The notes beneath the pieces were generated by a model. The model did no database searches, was not told the origin of the DNA, and saw nothing but the letters and a program-made list of their open reading frames with translations. Positions 44,871 through 63,863 of a DNA stretch of 64,000 bases are shown here, in pieces (position 1 is the stretch's first letter; every line of letters starts with the position of its first letter). Location of the stretch: NCBI GenBank assembly GCA_016191845.1, contig JACPVF010000006.1, forward strand, positions 62,001 to 126,000, read 5' to 3'. This stretch comes from Chloroflexota bacterium. GTDB taxonomy: Bacteria; Chloroflexota; Anaerolineae; Anaerolineales; Villigracilaceae. The position numbers were made by a program, and so were the translations under genes.

Positions 44871-47800
44871 CTACATCAGAAGTTGGCGGATCAGGGCGGC
44901 CAATTCCGCCAGCTTGACCGGCTTGCTGAGGTAATCGGTGGCGCCAGCCTCCAGGCAGCGCTCGCGGTCGCCTTTCATGGCGTAGGCGGTGAGGGCGATG
45001 ATGGGCTTGGCGGCAAACTGGGGATCGGCCCGCAGGCGGCGGGTGGCCTCCAGCCCGTCCATCCCGGGCATCTGGATATCCATCAAGATCAGGTCGGGGG
45101 AACATTCGACCGCCTTTTCCAGCGCCTCGTAGCCGTCGGCGGCGTACACCATGCTGTACCCCTTGCTATCCAGATATTCTCCGATCACCATGACATTGGT
45201 CGGGTTGTCTTCCACCAACAGGATGGTGGCAATGCTCTTTCGATCGGCGAGCGCCCCGGCTTTCTCTGTGGGGGGAGCTTCCGCTTCGAGCGGCGCCTGC
45301 GAAGTGGGCTCTGGCTCCTGCCAGGGCAGTGAGACGGTGAAGCGGCTGCCCTTCCCCGCCTCGCTTTCGACGGAGACGCTGCCCCCGTGCAACTCGGTCA
45401 GGCGTTTCACCAGGGTCAGCCCCAGGCCGGTGCCTTCATAGCTGCGCGTCAGGCTGTTATCCGCCTGGACGAAGGGGGAGAAGATCCGTTGCTGATCCTC
45501 GGCCGAGATGCCGATGCCCGTGTCGGTGACAGACAGGTCGATGCGGCCCCTGGCCCGGTCCGCGCGGACCTCGAGCCTGACCCTGCCCTCTGCAGGGGTG
45601 AACTTGACGGCGTTGCTCAACAGGTTGACCAGGATCTGTTTCAGCCGCCGCGCATCGGCCTGGATGCTGGTCACAGTTTTGTCCTTTGTGAACTCGACCT
45701 GAATGCCTTTTTCCGCGGCCGTTTCCTTGATGAAGGCCAGGCTGGCCTGGCACAGATCATCTGCCGACACCTCTTCGAGGTGCAGCTCCATTTTGTCCGC
45801 TTCGATCTTGGACAGGTCGAGGACGTCGTTGATCAGGCTGAGCAGGTGACGCCCACTGGCTTCGATCGTCGTGACATAGGTGCGCTGGCGCTCGTTGAGG
45901 GGGCCGCGATACCCTGTGAGCAGGATCTCGGCCATCCCCAGGATGCCGTTCAGCGGGGTGCGCAGTTCGTGGCTCATGTTGGCCAGGAAGTCGTCCTTGG
46001 CGCGCAGGGCGTGTTCCAGGGCGAGGTTGACCTGGCGCAGGTCGTTGCCCGCGCGGACGCGTTCGATGGCCACGGCCGACTGGTTGGCGATCGCCTGCAC
46101 CAGGTTGAGGTCTTCGGCGCGAAATGGCTTGTCCTCCGGCTTGTTGATGATGGTGATGGTGCCCAGGGGGTGATCCTGATAGAGGATCGGCGCCACGATG
46201 ATGTCGCCCGCCTGGGTGGCTTTGCGGCGACCCTGCACGGCGGGACTTTCGCGGCGGTCGGGGGACTCGCCAGAGGACCATGCGAGCTCCTTTTCACGCA
46301 ATACCCAGCCTGAGAGCCCTTCCCAGGCCTCCTCGAAGGAAACCTCCACGATGTTGGATGCGCCCGGGCCGCTCATGCATGCGAACTCGATCTTTCTGTT
46401 CGGCACGTCCATGAACATGATATTGACCCGATCCGCGGAAAGGGTTTCCACCAGCGTATCGGCGACCAGGCTGAGCAGGCTTTTCAACTCGGTGGTGGAA
46501 ATGGCTTCCTGGCTGATGGTATGCAGGGCCCTGACGCGCTTGAGGTTTTCACGCAGGGCTGCTTCGGCTCGCTTGCGTTCGGTGTTGTCGAAGAAGGAGA
46601 CGATATAGATCGTCTTGTCCTGGAATTTCATCGAGACGCCGCTGGAAACCACGTGAATATCCTGTCCGTTCAATTTGACATAGACGGTTTCGATGGCGGG
46701 CGCTCCCCCCTCGTTGTTGGTTACGGCCCGCATCCTTTCGAGGGTCAGGGCTCGATAGTCTGGATGGACGAACTCGAGGATCGGTTTCCCGGCAAAATCT
46801 TCGAAGGAGGTCCCGCCCAATAGCTCGATCGCTTTGCGGTTGATGATCGTCAAGCGGGCCTCCCTGTCGAAGCCGGCGATCGCCATCGGCGAGTACTCGA
46901 TCAGGGTGCGGTATCGTTCCTCGCTGTCGCGTAATACCTGTTCAGCCTGTTTGCGCTCGGTGTTGTCGAAGACGGTGGAGCGGCTCATCAAATAGTTGCC
47001 GTCTGCATCGTAGATGGCAGCGGCGTTCACCAAAGCCTGGAAGGCGGTCCCATCCTTGCGCAGGAATTCCAATTCAAGATCGTTCAGCCAGCCGCGTTGC
47101 TTGAAGATCGGGAATTTGGTTTGAAATAGCGACAGGCTGTCTGGCGTGATGAACTCCCCGAGCGGATGGCCGATCACCTCTTCACGTGTATGGCCCAGCC
47201 AGTTCAATGCGGTTTGGTTGATCTGGAGGAAACATCCCTTCGCATCCAGTGAATGGTAGCCGGCGGGCGCGTTGTCGTACAGATCCTGGATTTCTGCTGT
47301 TGCCCGTTGGATGCGCTCTTCCAGCGTGCGGTTCAGTTCGGCCAATTCCTGTTGGGCGGACTTGATGTCATCGATGTCAGTCGCATTGACCAGGACCTGG
47401 GTCACATCCCCCTTCTCATTGTGGATGGGCTGGTAAGCAATATGGTACCAGCGCGGTTTGCCCTGCACGAAGTTTTGCGTCTCGCGGATCAGCGCACGGT
47501 TTTCACAGATGGCCTGCCGGATGATGTCCATTTCCCCAGCTGCATATTCCGGCGGAAAGACATCGTACATCGCTTTGCCGATCAAGGTCTCGGCATTGCC
47601 GCCCAATTGGTGCACTGCGGGGTCATTCATATACAGGATGGTGCCATCGAAATCCACGCTCGTGATCAAGCTGTCCAGGCTTTCCATCAAACCGCGGTAT
47701 TTCTCCTCGCTTGCGCGCAGCTTTTCTTCCGTCCGCTTGCGCTCGTCGAGTTCGGCCTGTGCCTGGGCATACAGGCGGGCGTTTTGTTCGGCGGAGGCAA

Positions 47801-50795
47801 TGTGAACCGCCAGCGCTTCCAGCAGGTTTAACTGATCTTCGGTGTAGGCATTCTGAAGGTTACTGAATAGTTGGAGCACGCCGGTCACAGCCCCGCCGGT
47901 TTTCAGGGGCACCACCAGCGCTGAACCAGGCAGTTCCTGCTGCTCTTCTTCACTGGTATCTTCTGTGATGTTCGCGAGCTCGCCGGTCTCAGAGTCATAG
48001 ATATAACGGGTGCTGGCCGTCTTTTGATAGGCTCGATAGTCGTTCAACAGCATGGGCTTGCCGGTGTGGATGACCCTGCTTTGGGTGCCCCGGCCTTCCC
48101 CCTCCAGCGGGATGGGCGGGAACTCATCCACATCCTGCCACTCCTGGTCCAGTTTGTATGCCCGGCAGGTGATCAGGCGGCTCTGCGGGTCGAAGTTGGA
48201 GATCATGAAACCGTTGTTGGGGGCAATTTCTCCCATGAAATCGTTGACCAGTTCATAGATCGTGTTCAGGTCGAGGGTGCTGCTCAATCTCTGGCTGGCC
48301 TCGCGCAGCGCCTGCAAATTCTCGGTTTGCTGCTTCAGCGATTGTTCCGCCTGTTTGCGCTCGGTGATGTCCTGGAAGATGCCCTGGACCTTCACGACGC
48401 GCTCCTGTTCGAACACCGGCATCCCCATGGTGTGCACCCATTTCTTCACCCCGGTGGCATCCACCAGTTCCAGGGTCAGGTCGTAGGGTTTTCCTTCTGT
48501 GATCGCTTCTTCGATGGCCTTTTCGATCATTGCACGAGACTCTTCCAAATAGAAGCTCAATCCCAGCGCCACGCTGGTGGCCTGCGCGGGGTCGAGCCCG
48601 TGGATGCGGGCCACCTCGTCGGTCCAGGTGCCTTCCTTGGTGCGGGTGTCGAACTCCCAGCCGCCGACGTTGGCCATGGCACTGGTCATTTGCAGCAGCC
48701 GATCCTTGATGCGAACCTGCTCCTCGGCCTGCTTGCGCTCGGTAATGTCGATCTGTACCCCCACCAACTGGACGACTTGATCACCCTCCACGATTGGCGT
48801 CATGCTGTTGTAGACCCATTTCATGCGCCCATACTTGTCGAAGATACGCAATTCTTGATTGGCAGTGTGGCGGTTTTGAATGATGTCGATAAATGCCTCT
48901 TCGACGAGGTGCAAATCGTCTGGATGCACGGCTTGTTTGAAAACTTTGAAGGTCGGTTCGATCTCATTCGGCTCAAAGCCATACAGGTTGCAACAGTTTT
49001 CCGACCAATCCGCTTTGTTTGTCGATAGGTCAAGCCGCCAGCTGCCCATCTTGGCGATGCGCTGCGATTCCTTCAGGAACTGTTCGCTTTCGCTCAGTTT
49101 CTTCTCCGCCTGTTTGCGCTCGGTGATGTCATGCGCCACTATCATGGCCCCGGTGATCGTGCCGTCCGCATCGCGCAGTGGCGAGATTTCATTCACATAC
49201 ACGCGCGGCTGGCCCTCAATATCTATCCAGGCCGATTCCACCCGCGAGGCCTCGCCCTGGAAGGCACGGTCATACACGGCGCGCCAATCGGCCAGCACCT
49301 TGGGTGGGTAATCGGGCGAGAGGATATTTTCCCCCACTTCAAACAGATGTCCGCCGGTGGCGACCAGTTCTTGTTGATGTGCCTCATTGTTGACCAGCAG
49401 GCGATACTCCCGGTCAATGGCAAAGACGGCGTCCTGCGTGCTCTCCAGCACCTGGCGCAGAAGTGTTTCGCTCCTGCGCAGCTTCTCTTCCGCCTGCCTG
49501 CGCTCGGTGATGTCCTGTCCCGCGCCGATGATACGGACGATCCGTGTATGCCCCTCATCCCAGATGGGGCGGGAGTAAGCGCGGGCCCAGCGCGTCTCTC
49601 CGCTTTTCACGATCATTTGAACTTCGGTTACAACGGTTTCCCCTTGCAGGGTCCGCGCCGAATCGGCAAGAAACGCAGCCTTACTCTCGGGGGGAACGAG
49701 CGCCATAGGGCCGCCCATGGCCTGTACCTCCGCGGTGGAGTAGCCGCTGAACCTCTCGAAGGAACCGCTGATCCATTCCGGTACAAATTGGTTGCCGGGT
49801 TCCACCCGCAGGATGTATACATAATCTGAGATGAGTTCGGCAATCAGACGGTGACGTTCTTCACTCTCGCGCAGTTTTTCCTCGGCCTGCTTGCGTTCGG
49901 TGATGTCGAGCAGACTCGAGAGGACACAGGTCTCTCCCCCCAGGTGGATCGGCTCAGCCGACATCAACACACGGAGCTCTTTCCCGGAATGCGTGGTAAG
50001 CAAGATCTCAAGGTCGCGGATCATGTTATGTGCCCCCAGTTCTTCACGAATCCTGTGCAGCGTTTCTGGAGTAGCCAGTCCCAATTCGGTGGATGTGTGC
50101 CCGACGGCCTGCCCGCGCGTATAACCCGTTAATTCGCACCAGGCGTCGTTTACTTCCATAATTTCGAGACCGGGCTGGCGGGTAATGCCAACGGCAGTGG
50201 GATTGGCGTGAAACAAGGTGACAAACCGTTCCTCAGATTCATGGATGGCGTTCTCTGCATGTTTGCGATCGGTCACATCGTGCAAAATGCAATGTGTGCG
50301 GATGAATTGCCCCTGCTCGTCGCGCTGCACACCGCCATTCAATACCACTTCGCGCACATTGCCGTCTTTACATGCCAATTGCAGGTCAGCCTGGATGTAA
50401 TTTTCTCGTTTAAGGGTGTCGAAGGCTTGGGCGAACAGGGAGCAGGTTGCCGGGGTCCACAGGTCGCCGAAATTCCTGCCGAGTAGTTCCTCTTCGGAAT
50501 AACCGGTAAGCTCGCAATAAACCGGGTTGACGTCAAGAAAATTCCCCTGTTCGTCCAGGGATTGGTAGGCCACTGGGGCATGCTCGAATAAACTGCGGAA
50601 GCGGTCTTTATTTTTTTCGTTCTTGCAGGCCGCTAGTTGATTCTCCAATTCGGCAATGCGTTGATGCAATTCATCGTTTTTCTGTTGAAGCGCTGCTTTT
50701 GTAACCATTTCATTGACCTTTTCTAATGAAAAGCGGCTTTGTGTCGTGCTGACTGGTGATTCGAGGCAGACATCAAAAGGATGATCTTTTGACAT
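44871..50795 (-). CDS. multi-PAS/GAF hybrid sensor histidine kinase with receiver
   Basis: 1974 residues, very large. A coiled coil (~35-60) leads into six PAS domains (~65-850), a GAF domain, three more PAS domains (~1040-1440), a second GAF, HisKA with phospho-acceptor His1609 (NMSHELRTPLNG), HATPase_c (NLLSNAVKF, DTGIGIS, GTGLGL), and a C-terminal receiver with Asp1906 in LILMDIQMPG. There are no membrane helices, so it senses cytoplasmic signals. PAS/PAC linkers repeat DITERKQAEE almost identically. GGAGGAGG lies 13 nt upstream of the chosen ATG; an ATG 87 bp downstream with AAGG is possible. No output regulator is adjacent. Confidence 0.92.
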   Translation of the reverse strand: MSKDHPFDVCLESPVSTTQSRFSLEKVNEMVTKAALQQKNDELHQRIAELENQLAACKNEKNKDRFRSLFEHAPVAYQSLDEQGNFLDVNPVYCELTGYSEEELLGRNFGDLWTPATCSLFAQAFDTLKRENYIQADLQLACKDGNVREVVLNGGVQRDEQGQFIRTHCILHDVTDRKHAENAIHESEERFVTLFHANPTAVGITRQPGLEIMEVNDAWCELTGYTRGQAVGHTSTELGLATPETLHRIREELGAHNMIRDLEILLTTHSGKELRVLMSAEPIHLGGETCVLSSLLDITERKQAEEKLRESEERHRLIAELISDYVYILRVEPGNQFVPEWISGSFERFSGYSTAEVQAMGGPMALVPPESKAAFLADSARTLQGETVVTEVQMIVKSGETRWARAYSRPIWDEGHTRIVRIIGAGQDITERRQAEEKLRRSETLLRQVLESTQDAVFAIDREYRLLVNNEAHQQELVATGGHLFEVGENILSPDYPPKVLADWRAVYDRAFQGEASRVESAWIDIEGQPRVYVNEISPLRDADGTITGAMIVAHDITERKQAEKKLSESEQFLKESQRIAKMGSWRLDLSTNKADWSENCCNLYGFEPNEIEPTFKVFKQAVHPDDLHLVEEAFIDIIQNRHTANQELRIFDKYGRMKWVYNSMTPIVEGDQVVQLVGVQIDITERKQAEEQVRIKDRLLQMTSAMANVGGWEFDTRTKEGTWTDEVARIHGLDPAQATSVALGLSFYLEESRAMIEKAIEEAITEGKPYDLTLELVDATGVKKWVHTMGMPVFEQERVVKVQGIFQDITERKQAEQSLKQQTENLQALREASQRLSSTLDLNTIYELVNDFMGEIAPNNGFMISNFDPQSRLITCRAYKLDQEWQDVDEFPPIPLEGEGRGTQSRVIHTGKPMLLNDYRAYQKTASTRYIYDSETGELANITEDTSEEEQQELPGSALVVPLKTGGAVTGVLQLFSNLQNAYTEDQLNLLEALAVHIASAEQNARLYAQAQAELDERKRTEEKLRASEEKYRGLMESLDSLITSVDFDGTILYMNDPAVHQLGGNAETLIGKAMYDVFPPEYAAGEMDIIRQAICENRALIRETQNFVQGKPRWYHIAYQPIHNEKGDVTQVLVNATDIDDIKSAQQELAELNRTLEERIQRATAEIQDLYDNAPAGYHSLDAKGCFLQINQTALNWLGHTREEVIGHPLGEFITPDSLSLFQTKFPIFKQRGWLNDLELEFLRKDGTAFQALVNAAAIYDADGNYLMSRSTVFDNTERKQAEQVLRDSEERYRTLIEYSPMAIAGFDREARLTIINRKAIELLGGTSFEDFAGKPILEFVHPDYRALTLERMRAVTNNEGGAPAIETVYVKLNGQDIHVVSSGVSMKFQDKTIYIVSFFDNTERKRAEAALRENLKRVRALHTISQEAISTTELKSLLSLVADTLVETLSADRVNIMFMDVPNRKIEFACMSGPGASNIVEVSFEEAWEGLSGWVLREKELAWSSGESPDRRESPAVQGRRKATQAGDIIVAPILYQDHPLGTITIINKPEDKPFRAEDLNLVQAIANQSAVAIERVRAGNDLRQVNLALEHALRAKDDFLANMSHELRTPLNGILGMAEILLTGYRGPLNERQRTYVTTIEASGRHLLSLINDVLDLSKIEADKMELHLEEVSADDLCQASLAFIKETAAEKGIQVEFTKDKTVTSIQADARRLKQILVNLLSNAVKFTPAEGRVRLEVRADRARGRIDLSVTDTGIGISAEDQQRIFSPFVQADNSLTRSYEGTGLGLTLVKRLTELHGGSVSVESEAGKGSRFTVSLPWQEPEPTSQAPLEAEAPPTEKAGALADRKSIATILLVEDNPTNVMVIGEYLDSKGYSMVYAADGYEALEKAVECSPDLILMDIQMPGMDGLEATRRLRADPQFAAKPIIALTAYAMKGDRERCLEAGATDYLSKPVKLAELAALIRQLLM

Positions 50796-51202: not shown

Positions 51203-53749
51203 TTATTTCGTAGGTACCGCGCTTGGCCTGGGTTCAAAGTTGCTTTTTGTCCGTCGTGGCACCCATAGACCATTTAGGTTATCTTGTCCCATTGAAATAA
51301 GTAATTCGCTGAAAGGATATTCTTGTATGTTATTGATATAAGGATGATAGATGACTGCGCGGGGTTCATCGCGATCCGATATGATCCGATCCAGAACTAC
51401 CCATGTGCCTACGGCTCCCCGCAGGCGATAGGGGTAGGATTTTGGATCAATAAAGACCCCCACGATCAAATAGTGGGTTTCCAGCATTTTTGAAAAAAGA
51501 GCAGGTAAAACACCCTGATTTTTAGGAACACCCTTGAAGACATCTTCCAGGTTTATAAGCTCACCGGTACCCTCCTGATACCCATACACCTTCAGCATAT
51601 CCTTGATAGCCCCTATTCCAGTAGGTTTGTCATTATCCCCACCCAGGACCCTGGCATACTCTGTGGGAGAGGCCTTCTTCCATTTTTCCAGGAAGTCATA
51701 AATCCCATCCTCGGCCACATAGGCAACACAAAATTCTCCAGCCAGGTTGTGTTTCACTTTCCCATCGACGACAATATACTCGATTGGGGTTGGTGGGATG
51801 GTTTTGACCGGAGCGGGTTCCATCGAACCTAACTGCTCGACCATCGGCCAGCTTTTTCGAACAGGAGGCTGAGCTTCGCCGGGTCCCTTGGGTACGAATG
51901 GGGCAATCACGTGAACACTGGGCATGACCTTCAATACGTGAGACAGGTTGATGGTCGACAGATCCCATGCGCCTGAAGCAACTCCCCCTGTTGCTGCTGA
52001 GGGAGGTGAGCCAAGGGCCAGGAAGTTCATCAGGTCCCGCCGCGTTCTCCAAAGTTCCACGCGCGGCGAGAGGGTTTGAGGAGAAATTCCGTAGGCCAGT
52101 TGCTGCAATTCAGTCAATGTGTTTTCCTCCCCCTGAATATCTGTCATGAAGATGGGCCAGCGCAATTCCAGGGCAGTGAGTTTGGCGAATTTCTCGAGCG
52201 TGAACGCCTGGCCTCCCTTTTCGCCGGGGGTTTCGTCAAAGAGACCGGTCTCGGCCGCGATATAGACCCTGAGACGGAATAGGTTGATGAATTGTTTTAT
52301 TCGCCTGGGGTTGTAATCGAAAGCGACTGCCACCTGTTTGATCAGCGAGAGGAAGGTAGGGGTCTCTGGGCCCACCTGAATGATGACATGCTCGCGCCGC
52401 CTGAGTTTATCGGTCTCTTCCTGGCTCTTGGGCGGTTCAGGCTGTCCCTGTTCCCTGCCTGGCGGAGTCTGGCTGTCTCCTGGGGCTGCGGCGGTTGATT
52501 TGTTTCGTCGAAGTAGTCGCATGACCCGGGTGTATCGATCCCTGAACCAAAGCCGCCAGCGATGAGATCGGGTCTCTTGAGGTACAGCCTCCTGCTTGAG
52601 TTCTTTTAACAGGTCGTCGATTTTGTTGATATCCAGGCGGGGAATTCGGAACGGTAATTGGACGAATTTTTCGATGAACTCATATCCAAACTCCAACCCG
52701 ATGAGTTCGCGGTTCGAAAATGTGGAACCCTGATGGGAACGCGAGGCCAGGATGTAGGGCAGGAGCTTTTCATATTTCACTGCCAGGCCCGCAGCGACCT
52801 TTTCCCGATCCATGGCGATGAGGAAGATCACTCTTTTGTCGTCGCCGACCATCAGGTTGATCGCGCTCATCACATCGGCGGCCTTGGGCACCTCGCAGCG
52901 GTCGAGATCGTCCACGAACACAAAGACCTTTTTCTGCCCGACATAGATATCGAGGATTTCCTTGAAGTCTCTGTGGAATTTACTGATGAAGGGAACCCGT
53001 TCTTCATAATTGGTGGAGGAAATATACTTCCGTAGATCCACCTTGAGCGGATCTTCGATCAGAGGCAGGATCTTGCCCAGAACGTAAGCCAGGAGGATGG
53101 TGAAGCCTGCAACCCCGCCCAGTTCGATCCCGCTTTCCAGGAAGAGCTTCAGAGGGTCGAAATCCTTGGAGCTTGCAAATTGATAAAGGTCCTGGATCCA
53201 TTGGTTGCCCAGCATATAGGCGTATCGGCCCATCACAATGACCAGGATCAGCAGTCCCACCCATACAATGGTTTTGAGGGTCAGGTCGAGCCAGCCCTCC
53301 CTCCATTGATACCTTCGAAGGAAGCGTTTGGCATGGCCGATGACACGCTGTCCAGGGGGCGCGCTATGGATGATCCCGTCGATGAAACGGGATGCAAAAA
53401 CCGCCCATAACTCTTCTTCCTTGTCGTAGTGCCAGGGATCGAACCAGATGAGGGGATAACCTGCCAACTGTCTTTTCAATTGCAGCATGAACGAGGTTTT
53501 CCCGCTGCCCCATTCCCCCTCGATGGATAACACCAGGGGCGGCTTGGTGTCTGGGTTGGTTAGGAACTTGGCAATGGCCTTTACATACGGCTCGAAGCCA
53601 AGCCTGTCCCGATCTGTGGCCTGGTCTTCGAAGGTTTGTACGGAGATGTTTTCCTCTCTGGGGGAAAAAGATCTCACGCTGACAACAGGCTTTTTCCCCA
53701 TGCTCTTCCTGGGCGCGGAGTCTGGATTTTGGCGGGTCCTGGTGGCCAT
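51203..53749 (-). CDS. KAP-family P-loop NTPase, membrane-associated
   Basis: 848 residues from ATG 53749 (GGAG 6 nt upstream). Walker A GEWGSGKT (78-85), WFDPWHYDKEEELWAVFASR, two membrane helices (~156-176 and ~211-231) inserted between Walker A and Walker B, then Walker B VFVFVDDLDRC (Asp280/Asp281) and the sensor stretch LIAMDREKVAAGL: the KAP layout. A Pro/Gln-rich linker lies at ~430-460. The C-terminal ~380 residues are globular and family-unassigned. KAP NTPases organise membrane complexes and several act in anti-phage defence. No partner is adjacent. Confidence 0.88.
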   Translation of the reverse strand: MATRTRQNPDSAPRKSMGKKPVVSVRSFSPREENISVQTFEDQATDRDRLGFEPYVKAIAKFLTNPDTKPPLVLSIEGEWGSGKTSFMLQLKRQLAGYPLIWFDPWHYDKEEELWAVFASRFIDGIIHSAPPGQRVIGHAKRFLRRYQWREGWLDLTLKTIVWVGLLILVIVMGRYAYMLGNQWIQDLYQFASSKDFDPLKLFLESGIELGGVAGFTILLAYVLGKILPLIEDPLKVDLRKYISSTNYEERVPFISKFHRDFKEILDIYVGQKKVFVFVDDLDRCEVPKAADVMSAINLMVGDDKRVIFLIAMDREKVAAGLAVKYEKLLPYILASRSHQGSTFSNRELIGLEFGYEFIEKFVQLPFRIPRLDINKIDDLLKELKQEAVPQETRSHRWRLWFRDRYTRVMRLLRRNKSTAAAPGDSQTPPGREQGQPEPPKSQEETDKLRRREHVIIQVGPETPTFLSLIKQVAVAFDYNPRRIKQFINLFRLRVYIAAETGLFDETPGEKGGQAFTLEKFAKLTALELRWPIFMTDIQGEENTLTELQQLAYGISPQTLSPRVELWRTRRDLMNFLALGSPPSAATGGVASGAWDLSTINLSHVLKVMPSVHVIAPFVPKGPGEAQPPVRKSWPMVEQLGSMEPAPVKTIPPTPIEYIVVDGKVKHNLAGEFCVAYVAEDGIYDFLEKWKKASPTEYARVLGGDNDKPTGIGAIKDMLKVYGYQEGTGELINLEDVFKGVPKNQGVLPALFSKMLETHYLIVGVFIDPKSYPYRLRGAVGTWVVLDRIISDRDEPRAVIYHPYINNIQEYPFSELLISMGQDNLNGLWVPRRTKSNFEPRPSAVPTK

Positions 53750-53882
53750 GGTCTCTCCTAAGCCTGTCAACACGCACAAAGAGACTTTTGATGTTTAATT
53801 CATTATACACATCCCATGAATTGACGCATTAAAGCCCATCACGGCTTCTGTCCACGAATTAGTGCAAGCGTTCCTGCTTGGC

Positions 53883-55878: not shown

Positions 55879-55901
55879 GACTGCAAGGTTTTGCGAACAG
55901 A

Positions 55902-55936
55902 CAGGGTTGTCGTGAGACAGCCCTGTTTTTATTTTG
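55902..55936 (+). terminator. terminator of the cold-shock gene
   Basis: The 10-bp stem (55902-55911 with 55916-55925, one G-U pair) is followed by TTTTTATTTT. Confidence 0.9.
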
Positions 55937-56026: not shown

Positions 56027-56293
56027 GTGTCTTTCATTAATCCATTTAAGAGCGATACAAAACGACGCACGGTGTTGACCTCGGGACAGGTGGTGCCTGA
56101 GCCGTCCCGCTGCGTACAGTGCGGGATTTGCTCCTACAACTGTCCCATCGGCATCGACGTGCGCGCCCATGCCTGGCGCAACGAACCCGTCAAACACAGC
56201 GAGTGCCTGACCTGTGGCGAATGCGTGGCGCGCTGTCCGCGCGGGGTGTTGCGCTTCGCCCAGACTGACCTGTTCGAGGGGAGGGACGCATGA
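56027..56293 (+). CDS. 2[4Fe-4S] ferredoxin-like protein (HdrC/GlpC-like)
   Basis: 88 residues. A GTG start has GGAGG 5 nt upstream. Two complete cluster motifs: Cys29/32/35/39 (CVQCGICSYNCP) and Cys60/63/66/70 (CLTCGECVARCP). The spacing and the IGIDVRAHAW stretch between resemble the ferredoxin domain of HdrC, GlpC and related electron-bifurcating or quinone-linked subunits more than a free clostridial ferredoxin. Its stop overlaps the next ATG (ATGA). It should relay electrons to or from the FAD oxidoreductase. Confidence 0.9.
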   Translation: MSFINPFKSDTKRRTVLTSGQVVPEPSRCVQCGICSYNCPIGIDVRAHAWRNEPVKHSECLTCGECVARCPRGVLRFAQTDLFEGRDA

Positions 56294-57603
56294 GGTACGT
56301 CATCATCGGCTCGGGCGTGGCAGGCATGTCCGCCGCGGAGGCCATCCGTTCGGTGGATGGGGCGGGCGAGATCGTGATGGTCAGCGAGGACCCGCACGGA
56401 TATTATTCCCGCCCCGGGCTGGCCTATTATCTGACGGGGGAACTGCCCGACAAGGCGCTCTACCTGCGTTCCCGCGAGGATGCCAGAAAACTGAAGCTGA
56501 CCTTTCTCAACGCGTGCGTTACGCGCATCCTGCGCGCAGAGCACGCCCTCGAACTGGATGGAGGCAAATCGCGCCTGACCTACGACAAGCTGCTGATCGC
56601 CGTTGGTGCACAGGCTGTGCCGTTGCAAGTGACGGGCGCAAACCTGCAAGGGGTGGTCAAACTGGATCACATGAACGATGCCCGCTCCATCCTTAGCCAG
56701 GCCAGGCGCGGGCGGACGGCCGTGGTGGTCGGTGGAGGTATCACGGCCCTCGAACTGACCGAGGGCCTGCTGGCGCGCGGCATGAAGGTCATTTACCTGC
56801 TGCGCGGCGACCGGTATTGGGGCAACGTGCTCGATCCGCACGAATCACAGATCGTGGAGAAGCGGCTGGCGGAGGAGGGCGTGAGCCTGCGTCATCATGC
56901 CGACCTGGCTGAGATTCTTGGCAAAGGGGGGAAGGTGGCGGGCGTCCGTCTGAAGGATGGGCAGACGATCCGTTGCGACCTGCTGGCCTATGCCATCGGC
57001 ATCCGTCCGCGCATGGAACTGGTGACCGAGGCGGGTCTCGATTTCGAGCGGGGCATCCTGGTGGATGAGCATTTACAGACCAATGATCCCGATATCTTCG
57101 CTGCGGGCGACGTGGCCCAGGCCTTCGACCCGCTCTCGGGGCGGGCGGTGCTGGACAGCCTGTGGAATCCCGCACGGGAGCAGGGTCATGCCGCAGGGTT
57201 GAACATGGCGGGACGCAGGACGGCCTACCTGAAGTCCGCGCCGTTCAACGTCACACGGCTGGCCGGGTTGACCACCACCATCATCGGCGCAGTGGGGCAT
57301 GGCCTCGATGAGGATGTGTTCGGCATTGCTCGCGGCGACAGCGAGACCTGGCGCGACCTGCCGCACGCGCTCGTGGCGCAGAGCGGCTTCGACGTCAATC
57401 ATATGCGCCTGTTGGTGGGCGAGCAGACCCTGGTCGGTGCAGTGTTGATGGGCGATCAAACCCTGTCCTGGCCGCTGCAAAAGATGGTGGCGGGCGGTGC
57501 CGATATCTCGTCCATCCGCGACAAGCTGCTGGCTCCCGATGCGCCCATCGCCGACCTGATCGCCGCGTATTGGATGGAGTGGCGGAAACAAATCGCTTTG
57601 TGA
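56290..57603 (+). CDS. FAD-dependent NAD(P)-disulfide-type oxidoreductase
   Basis: 437 residues. FAD-binding IIGSGVAGMSAAEAI at the N-terminus, NAD(P)-binding VVVGGGITALELTEGL near residue 145, and the FAD motif DIFAAGDVAQ (~262) define a class similar to rubredoxin/nitrite-reductase NADH oxidoreductases. The CxxxxC redox-disulfide is absent, so it works by hydride-to-one-electron transfer. The C-terminal ~110 residues (VNHMRLLVGEQTLVGAVLMG) is the dimer domain. It would oxidise NAD(P)H and pass electrons to the ferredoxin and cytochromes (or the reverse). Coupled to the ferredoxin gene by a 4-bp overlap. Confidence 0.93.
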   Translation: MRYVIIGSGVAGMSAAEAIRSVDGAGEIVMVSEDPHGYYSRPGLAYYLTGELPDKALYLRSREDARKLKLTFLNACVTRILRAEHALELDGGKSRLTYDKLLIAVGAQAVPLQVTGANLQGVVKLDHMNDARSILSQARRGRTAVVVGGGITALELTEGLLARGMKVIYLLRGDRYWGNVLDPHESQIVEKRLAEEGVSLRHHADLAEILGKGGKVAGVRLKDGQTIRCDLLAYAIGIRPRMELVTEAGLDFERGILVDEHLQTNDPDIFAAGDVAQAFDPLSGRAVLDSLWNPAREQGHAAGLNMAGRRTAYLKSAPFNVTRLAGLTTTIIGAVGHGLDEDVFGIARGDSETWRDLPHALVAQSGFDVNHMRLLVGEQTLVGAVLMGDQTLSWPLQKMVAGGADISSIRDKLLAPDAPIADLIAAYWMEWRKQIAL

Positions 57604-57633
57604 GTGAACAAAACCGCAAGTGGAGAATGCAGA

Positions 57634-58188
57634 ATGCTTCGAGGAAATCGCGAATTATGGGCGGCGTTCCTGACGGGAGTGTTGATCACGGGCCTGTATG
57701 CGGCCGTGGTCTTCTTCACCCGCCAGATTCCCGCCGCGGGGGAGTTCTTCGGTCATGCGTTGGGAATCTTCGGTTTCATCTTGATGCTGATGACCGAGGT
57801 GTTGTATAGCCTGCGCAAACGCAGCCGCAGCGCGCGCTGGGGCAGGATGTCGTCCTGGCTGCAATTTCACATCTACACCGGGCTGGTGGGACCCTTCATA
57901 GTGCTGCTGCACACCTCGTGGAAGTTCAACGGGCTGGCGGGCGCCACCACGCTGCTGACGGTCATCATCGTGGTCAGCGGCTTCATCGGGCGCTACATCT
58001 ACACCCGCATCCCGCGCACGCTGGACGGGCTGGAGATCGAGGGTTCGCTTTCGGAGGCGGCCCTGCGTCAGGCGCGGCGGCTGATGGCGCTCTGGCACAC
58101 GATCCACATCCCGATCGGCATGGCCTTGTTCCTGTCGGCGTTCGTGCATATCGGCGCGGCGTTATATTACGCCACGTTCCTGCGATAG
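57634..58188 (+). CDS. membrane cytochrome b-like protein
   Basis: 184 residues from the ATG with GGAG upstream; an alternative GTG at 57604 directly follows the previous stop but has no ribosome site. Four membrane helices carry regularly placed histidines: FFGHALG, LQFHIYTG, LLHTSWKF, LWHTIHIP and FVHIGAAL, enough for two b hemes as in cytochrome b561/NarI-like proteins. A basic loop (LRKRSRSARWGRM) marks the cytoplasmic side. It ends 9 bp before the multiheme cytochrome gene. It probably connects the cytoplasmic flavoprotein/ferredoxin to the extracytoplasmic cytochrome. Confidence 0.85.
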   Translation: MLRGNRELWAAFLTGVLITGLYAAVVFFTRQIPAAGEFFGHALGIFGFILMLMTEVLYSLRKRSRSARWGRMSSWLQFHIYTGLVGPFIVLLHTSWKFNGLAGATTLLTVIIVVSGFIGRYIYTRIPRTLDGLEIEGSLSEAALRQARRLMALWHTIHIPIGMALFLSAFVHIGAALYYATFLR

Positions 58189-58197
58189 GGGGCTGCC

Positions 58198-59436
58198 ATG
58201 CAAAACAACCGACTTGGCTGCCTCACAAGCACGGGCATTGTCGCCGCCCTGGTGACCATTGCTGCGATCCTGGGCTTCGCCTTTTTCAATGGGAACCAAA
58301 TGTTCTCGCCGGGGCCATTGAATGCCCAGGCAGGCGAGGAAACCCTGGGCGGTGTAACCTCCCATGCGCAGATCCGCGATTGTTCGGCCTGCCATGCGGG
58401 ACTGCGCCCGTCTGACCACATGGCCGACCACTGCGTGACCTGCCACACCGAGATCGCTGCGCAGATGATGGACGTGGCCAAGCTGCATGGCTCGATCACA
58501 AAGAAGAGTCCTGCGCTGGCCTGCCGCGATTGTCATCCCGATCACCGTGGTTCCACCGCTGCGCTGACCGAACTGGGCTCGAACGCCTTCCCGCACGAAG
58601 CGCTGGGTTTCTCGCTGGCGGCCCATCCGCGCACGTCGGCGGGTCAACCCTTCACCTGTGCGGACTGTCACCCGGGCGATATCACGGCTTTCACCGCCTC
58701 GACCTGCGAGGATTGTCACCGCCAAATGGACTCGGTCTTCTCCCAGGCCCACACCATTTCGTATGGGACAGCCTGTCTCGATTGTCACGATGGCGTGGAC
58801 CGTTTCGGCAAGGCATTCAGCCATGCGGGTTTCTCCTTCAAGACCGAGGGCGGCCATGCCGGCGTAGCCTGTGCCAAGTGCCACACGGATGCGCGTTCCC
58901 TGGCTGATTTCCCCAAGGCCCCGACAGATTGTTATTCCTGCCATCGCGTGGATGATGAGCACGGCGGTCAATTCGGTACGGATTGCGCCGCCTGCCATAA
59001 TCCCTCCCGCTGGGACGACGCCACCTTCGACCACAGCCGCTCCAACTTCCCGCTGACGGGTGCGCATGTCAACGTCAAGTGCGAGCAGTGCCACACGAAC
59101 GGACAGTTCAAGGGCCTGGCATCCACATGTGTTTCATGCCATGCGGAACCCACACAGCATATGGGCCAATTCGGCACCGACTGCGCCGCCTGTCACAGCA
59201 CCAATGCCTGGAAGCCTGCTTCGTTCAATGGGAAGCATACCTTCCCGCTCAATCATGGAGAGAGCGGACAGGTCTCCTGTACCACCTGTCACCCGGTCAG
59301 TTATAACGCGTACACATGTTACGGCTGCCATGAGCATAATGAAGCAGAAATCGCCAGCAAGCACCGCGAAGAGGGTATCTCCGACTTCCAGGACTGTGTG
59401 CGCTGTCATGCCGACGGCCGCGAGCACGACGATTAG
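58198..59436 (+). CDS. 15-heme c-type cytochrome
   Basis: 412 residues with an N-terminal signal anchor (TGIVAALVTIAAILGFAFFN). Fifteen CxxCH motifs: CSACH, CVTCH, CRDCH, CADCH, CEDCH, CLDCH, CAKCH, CYSCH, CAACH, CEQCH, CVSCH, CAACH, CTTCH, CYGCH, CVRCH, one per ~25 residues. Segments such as FGTDCAACHNPSRWDDATFDH and FGTDCAACHSTNAWKPASFN repeat, so it grew by internal duplication of a cytochrome c3/c7-like unit. It lies outside the membrane and can form a long heme wire. The cytochrome c maturation genes are not in this window. It is the last gene of the ferredoxin operon. Confidence 0.95.
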   Translation: MQNNRLGCLTSTGIVAALVTIAAILGFAFFNGNQMFSPGPLNAQAGEETLGGVTSHAQIRDCSACHAGLRPSDHMADHCVTCHTEIAAQMMDVAKLHGSITKKSPALACRDCHPDHRGSTAALTELGSNAFPHEALGFSLAAHPRTSAGQPFTCADCHPGDITAFTASTCEDCHRQMDSVFSQAHTISYGTACLDCHDGVDRFGKAFSHAGFSFKTEGGHAGVACAKCHTDARSLADFPKAPTDCYSCHRVDDEHGGQFGTDCAACHNPSRWDDATFDHSRSNFPLTGAHVNVKCEQCHTNGQFKGLASTCVSCHAEPTQHMGQFGTDCAACHSTNAWKPASFNGKHTFPLNHGESGQVSCTTCHPVSYNAYTCYGCHEHNEAEIASKHREEGISDFQDCVRCHADGREHDD

Positions 59437-59459: not shown

Positions 59460-59498
59460 ATCAGGCCCGAAGTCCAGAAAGTGGACTTCGGGCCTGAT
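59460..59498. terminator. long perfect bidirectional terminator hairpin
   Basis: A perfect 16-bp stem (59460-59475 with 59483-59498) and a 7-nt loop lie between the convergent cytochrome and MFS genes. Confidence 0.85.
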
Positions 59499-60991: not shown

Positions 60992-61309
60992 TCAAGCCTG
61001 TTGTGGGATAAAGCGCTTACGGCGATCGATCCATTTCAGAAGCTGGTAGAAGAGATTAATCATCACACCGATCACGCCGATGTTCTTGACCAGTTCGAGC
61101 AGACCGAAGGCGCCGCCTCCGCCGCCGTCATGGTCGCCGCCTTCGGGCCGTTCCATTCCTGTGGGCGGATTGCCTGCGCTGAATTGACCGTTGGGCTGGT
61201 CCCCATTTGACGTGTTGCTGGAAACGGTCAGCGAGAAGCCTGCAATGACAATGCTTGCGATGACCAGGATGATCAGGATACGTCCGAGTGTAGAGAATGT
61301 CGATTTCAT
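60992..61309 (-). CDS. small membrane protein with glycine-rich loop
   Basis: 105 residues. Two hydrophobic helices (~9-30 and ~70-90) flank a Gly/Asp/His loop (GMERPEGGDHDGGGGGAFG), the C-terminus is basic (KWIDRRKRFIPQQA). It starts 4 bp after the DUF4405 gene, so they share a message. No family recognised; a metal or heme link through the His/Asp-rich loop is only a guess. Confidence 0.75.
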   Translation of the reverse strand: MKSTFSTLGRILIILVIASIVIAGFSLTVSSNTSNGDQPNGQFSAGNPPTGMERPEGGDHDGGGGGAFGLLELVKNIGVIGVMINLFYQLLKWIDRRKRFIPQQA

Positions 61310-61313
61310 GAGA

Positions 61314-61826
61314 TTACCTTTCGTTGATCTTGACGGGCATGGCCTGCGGCTGCAGTGACTGAGGCTGGCGGTGGTGGAGGAGATTGCCGATGGGCTGAAG
61401 CATGTGGCGCATGACCCATTTCCAGTTGACGGCCAGGTGCAGGCCGACGATGAACAGGGTGGCGTCAGATGACAGGCTGTGCAGGCTCTTCCAGCCCATG
61501 CCGCCCGTGATGGACAGTCCCAGCGTGGGCAGGGCCACCTTCGAGATCATCAGTCCCGAGTAGAACGCGACCGTCATGGCGATGAACAGCAGGGCGCTGA
61601 AGAGGTAGTTCAGACGGGTCTGCAACGATTGCTTCTGGAAGAAGCGCTTGGTGACCGCGGCGAACCAGTCGAAGCTGAGCAGCAGGTGGGTGAGGACGGC
61701 GGCCAGAGCAGCGACACCCAGCCATTCGTGGATGGCGGTACCCGTCAGTTTCTCCGAGAGCAGAGTGACAGTGGCAGCAGCCACGATGAGGTCAGTGATA
61801 ATTTTGTTGCGAGTTTTGGAATTCAT
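61314..61826 (-). CDS. DUF4405-family four-helix membrane protein (cytochrome b561-like)
   Basis: 170 residues. AAGGAG lies 6 nt before the ATG. Four membrane helices have His at heme-like positions: IHEWLG, VLTHLLLS, KSLHSLSS and VGLHLAVNWKW, the hallmarks of DUF4405. Such proteins are thought to be small membrane cytochromes. A His-rich C-terminal tail (LLHHRQPQSLQPQ) follows. It may take part in quinone-linked electron transfer. Confidence 0.87.
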   Translation of the reverse strand: MNSKTRNKIITDLIVAAATVTLLSEKLTGTAIHEWLGVAALAAVLTHLLLSFDWFAAVTKRFFQKQSLQTRLNYLFSALLFIAMTVAFYSGLMISKVALPTLGLSITGGMGWKSLHSLSSDATLFIVGLHLAVNWKWVMRHMLQPIGNLLHHRQPQSLQPQAMPVKINER

Positions 61827-62032: not shown

Positions 62033-63022
62033 CTACTTCCCCAATTTTTTCTTGAACGCCTCAGTCAAGGCAGGCAGGATCGCGAACAGATCACCGACCA
62101 CGCCGTAGCGCGCCTGGGTGAAGATCGGGGCGTCAGCGTCCTTGTTGATGGCCACGATCAGCTTGGCGTTGCGCATGCCCACCAGATGCTGGATCGCGCC
62201 CGAGATGCCCGCCGCGATGTACAGATCGGGGCTGACGACTTTGCCCGTCTGGCCGACCTGGTTGGAGTAGGGGATGTAACCCGCGTCGACGGCTGCGCGC
62301 GAAGCGCCGACCGCACCGTCCAACACGGAGGCCAACTCACCAACCAACTCGAAGCCTTTGTGCGCGGTGGCCATCTCGTCCAGGCCGAGCGATGGGTTGT
62401 TTGACACGCCGCGCCCGCCCGAGACGATCACGCCCGCGTCGGTCAGGTTGACGACGTTCTCGGCTACGGCGTAGCCTTCCACGTTGGTCAGAGACTCGGC
62501 TTTCGCCTCAGCCTTGGTCAACGTGCCTGTGCGTCCTGCCTCGGCGGCGGGTTTGGGGAAGGCGCGTGCGCGCAGGGTAGCCATCACAGGCTTGCTCGAG
62601 CAAACGGATTTCTCCAGCACCTTGCCTTCGTAGATCGGGCGCGTGGCGACCAGGTTGTCACCGTCCGCTTCCAGCGCGATGACGTCGGTCAGCACGCCTG
62701 TGCCCAGGTCCACGGCGGACATGGCGGCCAGCTCACGGGTGCGGGCGGTCGTCGGGAACAGGATCAGGTCAGGGGTCGCTGCGTGAGCCAGCGCCGAAAG
62801 GGTGGAGGCAAACGGCTCGGCGCGATAATCCAACAGGGCGGGATCATCCACCAGCAGAACCTCATCCGCACCAGCCTCGAACGCCGACTGCGCGATCGAC
62901 TCCACACCCGAGCCGAACACCAGCGCGACGGTGCTGCCGAAGCTTTTGGCCAGGCCGAGCGCCTCCCACGAAGCAGGCTGGACCGCGCCCTTGAAATGGT
63001 CGATGTAGACAAAAGTTTTCAT
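62033..63022 (-). CDS. etfA: electron transfer flavoprotein subunit alpha
   Basis: 329 residues from ATG 63022, which overlaps the etfB stop (ATGA). N-terminal EtfA/B domain ([20 protein letters not shown], then [20 protein letters not shown]). The C-terminal FAD domain has [32 protein letters not shown] and [13 protein letters not shown]. With the beta subunit it accepts electrons from acyl-CoA or related dehydrogenases and delivers them to an ETF:quinone oxidoreductase. No bcd or fixC genes are in the window. It is not clearly of the bifurcating type. Confidence 0.95.
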
Positions 63023-63789
63023 AGCACCTTCTCCGCCAGGATCTTGTCGGCCAGTTTGTCGGCGATCTCTGCGGGGCTTTCGCCCGTGATGATCTCGACC
63101 GTCGTCTCGCGGCTGGGCGGGTTCATCAGCTCGGCGCGTGTCACCACGGCGGCGGGAGCGGCGATGCCCAGGTCGGCCAGCGTCCAAACGGGGATGGTGG
63201 CCTTCGAGGCTTTGCGGATGCCCATGAACGACGGGTAACGCGGTTCGCCGATGCTCTGCACGACGCTCAACACGGCGGGCAGTTTGGCGCTGACGGTTTG
63301 ACGGCCTTCCTCGATGACGCGCTCGACCGTGACGTTCCCATCCTGGACCTTGATCTGGCCTGCCAGCCCAAGCATCGGCCACGCGAGGACGCGAGCGGTC
63401 TGCGCGGGGGTCAGGCCTGCGCCGTTGTCGAGGGTCTGACGGCCGAAGACGACCATGTCTGCGCCGCCGATCTTCTGGATGGCAGCCGCCAGGACGCGTG
63501 CCGCGCCCAGCGTATCCAGACCATCCAGCGCGGGATCAGAGACGAGGACCGCCTCATCGGCGCCCATGGCCAGTGCGTGCTTGAGCGCTTCCTTGGCCGA
63601 CTCAGGCCCGATGCACAAGGCCGTGACCGTGCCGTCGGTGGCCTCCTTCTGCTGAAGCGCGCCTTCGACGGCATACTCGTCGAACGGGTTGATCACCAGC
63701 GGCGCGTCCCCCCACGATACTTGTCCGTTCTCGGCCTTGACCTTCGCTTCCGAGTCAGGCACTTGCTTGATACAGGCGATGATTTTCAA
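63019..63789 (-). CDS. etfB: electron transfer flavoprotein subunit beta
   Basis: 256 residues from a TTG start. That start is chosen because AAAGGAGG lies 6 nt upstream and the conserved KIIACIKQVPDSE begins there; the open frame runs 7 codons further without support. VINPFDEYAVEGAL and MGADEAVLVSDPALDGLDTL match the AMP/FAD-binding EtfB domain, with the signature VERVIEEGRQTVSAKLPAVL near the C-terminus. It is co-translated with etfA. Confidence 0.95.
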   Translation of the reverse strand: MKIIACIKQVPDSEAKVKAENGQVSWGDAPLVINPFDEYAVEGALQQKEATDGTVTALCIGPESAKEALKHALAMGADEAVLVSDPALDGLDTLGAARVLAAAIQKIGGADMVVFGRQTLDNGAGLTPAQTARVLAWPMLGLAGQIKVQDGNVTVERVIEEGRQTVSAKLPAVLSVVQSIGEPRYPSFMGIRKASKATIPVWTLADLGIAAPAAVVTRAELMNPPSRETTVEIITGESPAEIADKLADKILAEKVL

Positions 63790-63863
63790 GACGATCCTCC
63801 TTTGTGGCACATCTTATCGGATGTTTGGATACCGTTTTCATAATTCGTTATCAAACAGGAAAC

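Follow-up and report, generated by a model that had tools for sequence, protein, structure and literature searches.

The CbcL, CymA/MtrCAB, and Cbc systems of Geobacter and Shewanella are fed by quinol and work in cells with an outer membrane, and in the NOX enzymes electrons pass from NAD(P)H to flavin and on to two stacked b hemes across one membrane. In this study, we analyzed a 64,000-nucleotide stretch of DNA (hereafter the window) from a Chloroflexota bacterium of the Villigracilaceae, Anaerolineales (GenBank assembly GCA_016191845.1, contig JACPVF010000006.1, positions 62,001 to 126,000). The list of open reading frames (ORFs) and profile searches place in it, at 56027-59436 on the plus strand, an operon for a ferredoxin, a flavin adenine dinucleotide (FAD) oxidoreductase, a di-heme b membrane protein (hereafter the b-protein), and a cytochrome c with 15 CXXCH motifs. 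With a probability of roughly 0.6, we read these genes as encoding a four-subunit, porin-free transmembrane conduit that would carry electrons from NAD(P)H to the outside. Like the CbcL, CymA/MtrCAB, and Cbc systems, the operon has a heme-bearing membrane entry that would feed a multiheme cytochrome c, but it differs from them by its separate subunits, its flavin/ferredoxin module, and the lack of a porin gene; no gene for an MtrCAB-type β-barrel porin was found among the four operon genes, to which this search was confined. The NOX/FRE/STEAP proteins (SpNOX, 8qq7; STEAP2, 7tai) share with the operon a helix bundle in which each of two b hemes would have a His pair; the likeness lies in four invariant His residues, with a putative pairing and a weak fold match. 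However, the fused FNR-type FAD/NAD domain of NOX/FRE is not found in the operon, which has a separate protein of the disulfide-oxidoreductase type (PF07992) and a ferredoxin instead. An FNR-type protein stands beside the b-protein only in the type represented by loci L185, L189, L191, and L192 (see below), and the exit is O2 or ferric ion in NOX/FRE, whereas here it is a ladder of c hemes.

Anaerolineae and their kin, which live in sludge, sediments, and groundwater, have been suspected of extracellular electron transfer (PMC7399161, in the parts covered here). According to the same parts of that account, Anaerolineales bioanode genomes encode large multiheme cytochromes whose homologues vary in heme number by pairs or multiples, and no porin-cytochrome complex was found in them (PMC7399161). 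Those cytochromes and the one described here are alike in being large, multiheme, variable in heme number, and from Anaerolineales, and the identity of the two sets is not established; the parts covered mention no neighboring ferredoxin, FAD, or b genes, no 66-residue unit, and no donor route. In another member of the phylum, Ardenticatena maritima, two-way electrode transfer and a seven-heme surface protein have been described (PMC5808234, covered in part). Heme binding has been shown for a DUF4405 protein, and small membrane heme-b proteins are linked to extracytosolic electron transfer (PMC11334425, covered in part). The partners in these DUF4405 systems, as far as the covered part of that source goes, are flavin mononucleotide or flavinylated proteins, whereas the partner in the operon is a heme c ladder, and the match of the b-protein to DUF4405 (PF14358; E 0.03, 15.3 bits) falls below the cut-off of 26.7. 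In the literature covered, mostly without subscription journals and mainly at abstract level, we found neither a description of the four-gene operon nor a complete extracellular electron-transfer route for Anaerolineae. The operon is real and probably undescribed.

The four genes are tightly packed. The ferredoxin and FAD genes overlap by 4 bp, the b-protein starts 30 bp past the FAD stop, and the cytochrome starts 9 bp past the b-protein stop. The features of the locus are as follows.

55899-55928, plus strand: T-tailed, terminator-like hairpin that separates the operon from the cold-shock gene before it (terminator scan)
56027-56293, plus strand: 2[4Fe-4S] ferredoxin, 88 residues, GTG start, 8 Cys in two CX2CX2CX3C motifs
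56290-57603, plus strand: pyridine-nucleotide FAD oxidoreductase, 437 residues (PF07992, E 5e-54)
57634-58188, plus strand: putative di-heme b-type membrane protein, 184 residues from a conserved ATG (longest ORF from GTG 57604)
58198-59436, plus strand: 15-heme cytochrome c, 412 residues, 15 CXXCH, a single N-terminal hydrophobic helix, five triheme groups
59460-59498, no strand assigned: hairpin with a perfect 17-bp stem and a 5-nucleotide loop, without a T run, between convergent genes

The ATG at 57634 is the start common to most close relatives of the b-protein, and its His residues are numbered from there (184-residue form). A sequence-only reading of the window had proposed a single four-gene unit, with a 4-bp overlap and short gaps, that contains a 15-heme cytochrome and a di-heme membrane protein, works as an electron conduit, and ends in a 16-bp terminator. 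The ORF coordinates and the kept gene order bear out the single unit, and the CXXCH count is exactly 15; the di-heme protein and the conduit idea are upheld, at the level of sequence, by four invariant His residues and the conserved gene set. As for the terminator, a perfect hairpin does exist at 59460-59498, but we grade it as a likely terminator because it has no T run and is absent from the list of the terminator scan, which found four terminator-like sites in the region against 2.9 expected by chance. The source genome, 99% complete with 4.63 Mb in 18 contigs, yields a single match for the b-protein, a single one for the cytochrome (both at E ≤ 0.001), and one for the flavoprotein (E ≤ 1e-60). 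It also has two matches to the cytochrome c assembly family PF01578, a number that is the same or nearly so in 59 of 61 relatives.

To follow the gene order, contigs of named genomes were scanned with the b-protein. The best 80 of 215 confirmed stretches gave 79 loci, all labeled Chloroflexota and mostly Anaerolineales, Anaerolineae, or plain Chloroflexi; because this cut keeps close relatives only, it cannot be concluded that the four-gene form is restricted to the phylum. All four genes were found in the window order at 70 of the 79 loci, with the FAD gene 2.7 kb (L152) and 0.7 kb (L159) before the b gene in two of them. The other nine lack the ferredoxin (four loci) or both the ferredoxin and the FAD protein (five loci), because the 5′ end of the contig falls within 1.4 kb of the b gene in each. 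A multiheme cytochrome follows the b-protein at every one of the 79 loci; the sequence-only reading had asked whether the cytochrome usually adjoins the other three genes, and it does, the flavoprotein or ferredoxin being missing solely at contig ends. Of the 70 ordered loci, 44 have ferredoxin and FAD genes that overlap by 4 bp, and 20 have genes that overlap by 1 bp. A second draw, 40 loci from 40 genomes picked because the b-protein or the cytochrome had a match in them, overlaps the first set, many of whose loci come from the same organisms; 38 of these loci hold all four genes within the stretch, 33 of them in the window order. Of 400 Chloroflexota genomes, 59 contain a b-protein match (E ≤ 0.001, many of these weak and near 30% identity), and 14 of the 25 members of the source organism's own family in this draw matched at E ≤ 1.2e-87. 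The cytochrome (E ≤ 0.001) and the flavoprotein (E ≤ 1e-60) occur together in an identical 30 of 61 relatives and are both missing from the other 31, with kinship uncorrected. Since several Chloroflexota families retain these genes as a set, the grouping is more than chance. As a kept unit, the set appears to link a cytoplasmic carrier, a membrane heme b, and an extracytoplasmic multiheme cytochrome c, the combination that marks an extracellular electron-transfer conduit. In L083, one stretch carries the ferredoxin, FAD, and b genes twice, with a multiheme cytochrome after each copy.

Six His residues of the b-protein are invariant in 29 homologues. H79, H93, H158, and H172, two pairs each 14 residues apart, occur without exception in 15 sequences from three phyla (Chloroflexota, Bacteroidota, and Pseudomonadota) and are candidate ligands of two b hemes; the same four are also invariant in b-proteins that stand beside other flavin modules or without a cytochrome. 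With helices taken from a predicted model, the putative inner loops are longer than the outer loops and hold 6 Lys/Arg residues each (means among homologues 5.8 and 11.1, the latter raised by an insertion that distant members carry), compared with 2 at the N-terminus (mean 1.6) and 1 each in the outer loops and at the C-terminus (means 0.8-0.9). This concentration of Lys/Arg in the two loops placed inside suggests an N-in, C-out topology, in which H79/H158 would lie toward the inside and H93/H172 toward the outside. In the b-proteins of L075 (6315-7148) and L097 (3403-4218), approximately 80 extra residues occupy the putative inner loop between helices 4 and 5; this insert might contact the ferredoxin or the flavoprotein. 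The top matches of the model in VIA-align were CybB, b561, a designed di-heme bundle, STEAP2 (7tai), and SpNOX (8qq7), all weak (Z 8.2-8.9), and this likeness of helical bundles may be merely a common arrangement.

On the inner side, all 70 scored homologues of the ferredoxin retain its 8 Cys. The FAD protein was compared with solved structures, and its best match was the FAD subunit of an Fe-S aldehyde oxidoreductase, AorC (8c0z_E, 128 bits), followed by the NADH oxidase NoxA-3 (125 bits) and rubredoxin reductase (3fg2, 115 bits). Among NCBIfam models, it reached 187 bits with PadH (phenylglyoxylate dehydrogenase epsilon, NF045765) and 184 bits with the nitrite reductase large subunit NirB (TIGR02374), below the respective cut-offs of 475 and 578. 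PadH and AorC, which as FAD subunits link NAD with Fe-S partners, are the best-scoring relatives; unlike them, the operon has no oxo-acid or aldehyde enzyme, and the PadH score is far below its cut-off. The sequence-only reading had left room for a soluble peroxide- or rubredoxin-linked enzyme, and on this point the scores favor PadH and AorC by a narrow margin over NoxA-3, 3fg2, and NirB. A Pro within an SRPGL motif stands where the aligned Nox, CoA-disulfide, and CoA-persulfide reductases have Cys, and of 71 scored homologues, only one contains a Cys anywhere within the 14-residue stretch around this motif. A peroxide/disulfide-linked flavoprotein of the CoA-disulfide reductase/NADH oxidase type is disfavored by this replacement. 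Rubredoxin reductase 3fg2 has Pro at the same position, so the residue itself does not separate the rubredoxin-linked type, which is unlikely on the grounds of gene linkage and co-occurrence.

The 15 heme motifs of the cytochrome form five triplets by spacing, and in longer homologues the spacing repeats as 16/18/32, that is, as a triheme unit of approximately 66 residues. First cytochromes were closed frames at 77 of the 79 loci and hold from 11 to 33 motifs: 15 and 18 in 17 loci each, 17 in 13, 20 in 12, 14 in 5, 21 and 30 in 4 each, 23 in 2, and 11, 19, and 33 in 1 each. At least one further multiheme cytochrome, with up to 47 motifs, lies downstream at 20 of the 79 loci. One such frame (L067, 9471-12938; 1155 residues) has 47 CXXCH, mostly in triheme units. 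In a set of 12 homologues chosen for similar heme number (11 with 15 hemes, one with 14), each of the 15 motif His, together with exactly 15 His outside the motifs, is present in 11 or 12 of the sequences. Because there is one conserved extra His per heme in a triheme ladder, the cytochrome is probably a chain of 15 bis-His hemes, a wire rather than an enzyme. Its N-terminal helix points to a location outside the membrane. The Cys of an RLGC motif before this helix (58198-58236) is invariant in 12 aligned sequences. The cytochrome matches Cytochrome_C7 (PF14522) over the cut-off in 4 stretches (E 2e-19) and also exceeds the cut-offs of Cytochrom_c3_2 and class III cytochrome c; a marginal match to MtrC/MtrF domain II/IV (PF22113; residues 244-410, 32.4 bits against 30, E 8e-8) has no counterpart over the cut-off in the proteobacterial 7-heme relative. 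The N-terminal helix and first hemes align weakly with 6lod and 8k9e (E 1e-5 and 2e-4), entries titled merely multiheme or c7-like proteins, which we take to be ActA of Alternative Complex III. In contrast to that complex, the operon has none of its other genes, and the cytochrome has many more hemes than ActA.

Distant b-proteins stand beside other inside modules. L185, from a 77% complete genome of the same phylum, and the Pseudomonadota plasmids L189, L191, and L192 combine a flavoprotein related to FNR/2Fe-2S proteins with a b-protein and a 7-heme cytochrome. On the Bacteroidota plasmid L190 (Emticicia), the b-protein is accompanied by a flavoprotein fused to a ferredoxin and by two large cytochromes, and L188 has a b-protein and an 8-heme cytochrome with no match to the ferredoxin or the FAD protein. 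Four of 30 matching plasmid records were included, and a Pfam search of L189, L190, and L187 gave no match over the cut-off for their b-proteins. The strongest evidence for a route from NAD(P)H through flavin, Fe-S, and heme b to heme c comes from this swapping of flavin modules. The version with the FNR-type protein adjoins NiFe hydrogenase genes in L192 (a Glaciecola plasmid) and lies near ccm genes in L189 (a Methylophaga plasmid).

The sequences themselves establish the gene set and its conservation, the cofactor motifs, the co-occurrence, the number of His residues, and the loop charges. From these data we infer complex formation, ligand pairing, an NAD(P)H donor, an outward direction, and a final acceptor, as follows. 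The cytoplasmic FAD protein would receive hydride from NAD(P)H, and its flavin would hand single electrons to the 2[4Fe-4S] ferredoxin, which in turn would reduce the cytoplasm-side heme b (H79/H158) of the five-helix membrane protein. The electron would then cross to the outer heme b (H93/H172) and enter the membrane-anchored ladder of 15 bis-His c hemes, which would lead to the cell surface and to minerals, humic matter, an electrode, or another cell. Because electrons that leave a negative-inside cell spend membrane potential, the conduit would be a sink for excess reductant or a redox valve, not a pump.

Several observations weigh against this reading. The donor and the direction do not follow from sequence. 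The operon is absent from 31 of the 61 relatives. In the 40-locus draw, five loci have a different gene order (L078, L091, L095, L096, and L097) and two are incomplete (L074, ferredoxin not found and FAD protein partial; L100, neither found). Five Chloroflexota loci with weak b-protein matches (L182-L184, L186, and L187) have the order FAD-ferredoxin-b-protein, and no frame with three or more heme motifs was found in their 9.5-10.5 kb, so the partner of this related set there must be something else. The b-protein model is moderate (predicted local distance difference test score, pLDDT, 73); a Foldseek search with it gave no match at E ≤ 0.001, and the unrelated helical proteins HlyD and F-BAR rank among the VIA-align matches no worse than the di-heme proteins. 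The predicted structure of the cytochrome is of poor quality (pLDDT 54). When the His count is repeated on 18 cytochromes of 15 hemes each, a set that overlaps the first, 16 extra His pass 90%, namely, the same 15 plus H380. The literal RLGC motif was found in at least 57 of the 79 cytochromes, a lower bound because some frames are read from too far upstream. Finally, COX1 exceeds the cut-off in 28 of the 30 operon-bearing relatives and in 19 of the 31 that lack the operon (Fisher p 0.005, kinship uncorrected). As COX1 is thus commoner with the operon, most owners are oxygen-capable and not plain fermenters in need of a sink.

The alternative that survives best is the same conduit running inward, in which the ladder would take electrons from Fe(II), reduced humics, or partner cells, and the ferredoxin and FAD protein would reduce NAD(P)+ or feed biosynthesis. 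All the cofactors are reversible, and A. maritima carries out both anodic and cathodic transfer (PMC5808234, covered in part). However, on general grounds the flow would run against the negative-inside potential and the outside donor would have to be approximately as reducing as NADH, and we consider this direction unlikely.

A quinone-linked branch is in our view quite unlikely; in it the b-protein, like CbcL or hydrogenase b subunits, would exchange electrons with menaquinol, and the ferredoxin and FAD protein would be a side entry. This reading draws on the weak match of the b-protein to PF01292 (cytochrome b561/Ni_hydr_CYTB; E 2e-6, 28.0 bits), slightly below the cut-off of 30.1, and on the additional residues H41 and H155, which the four-gene Chloroflexota forms share with the Bacteroidota form and which are missing from the rest of the alignment. 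By contrast, the near-strict gene set with a ferredoxin and an FAD protein and the FNR-type relatives point to NAD(P)H.

We regard as decidedly improbable a system for oxygen or redox stress, which would send electrons to a surface or terminal oxidase or peroxidase rather than to solids. The COX1 distribution fits this role and an accessory electron outlet in facultative cells alike, and the look-alikes of the b-protein include the superoxide oxidase CybB and NADPH oxidases; however, the operon has no oxidase or peroxidase gene, and a soluble acceptor would not need a long, extensible heme ladder. That the cytochrome is a catalytic nitrite or metal reductase fed by the other genes of the operon, as the sequence-only reading had suggested and as the existence of multiheme nitrite reductases allows, is very improbable, given that 15 + 15 conserved His appear to provide two for each of the 15 hemes and leave no evident open site, and that the gain and loss of whole units is ill-suited to a fixed active site.

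Other genes in the window lie on the minus strand around the operon. A DUF4405 membrane protein (61314-61826, E 7e-13) is a second putative heme b gene approximately 2 kb from the operon, and the 105-residue ORF after it (60992-61309) has no Pfam match at E ≤ 0.001. By eye, the ORFs at 63019-63810 and 62033-63382 resemble electron-transfer flavoprotein subunits, and that at 44871-50795 is a hybrid sensor kinase of 1974 residues with many PAS-like repeats. The ORF at 51203-53779 encodes a KAP-family P-loop NTPase of 858 residues (PF07693, E 8e-34). Metal reduction and interspecies exchange, as raised by the sequence-only reading, are candidate roles. The sludge-floc setting once proposed for the system proved not to be specific, as the records name groundwater, lakes, sediments, soil, and mines in addition to sludge.

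Returning to the NAD(P)H-to-outside conduit, we lean, at somewhat better than even odds, toward placing it in a plug-in electron-gate family that extends over three phyla. Its core would be a di-heme b protein with four invariant His, combined with one of several flavin modules inside and with a heme c ladder outside that grows by triheme units of 66 residues, porin-free in Chloroflexota. Close relatives whose ladders have, for example, 15, 18, and 21 hemes form a natural series in which to study heme-wire lengthening. For Anaerolineae, the operon is a compact candidate route for extracellular electron transfer that would start from NAD(P)H, could bypass quinones, and includes no porin gene.

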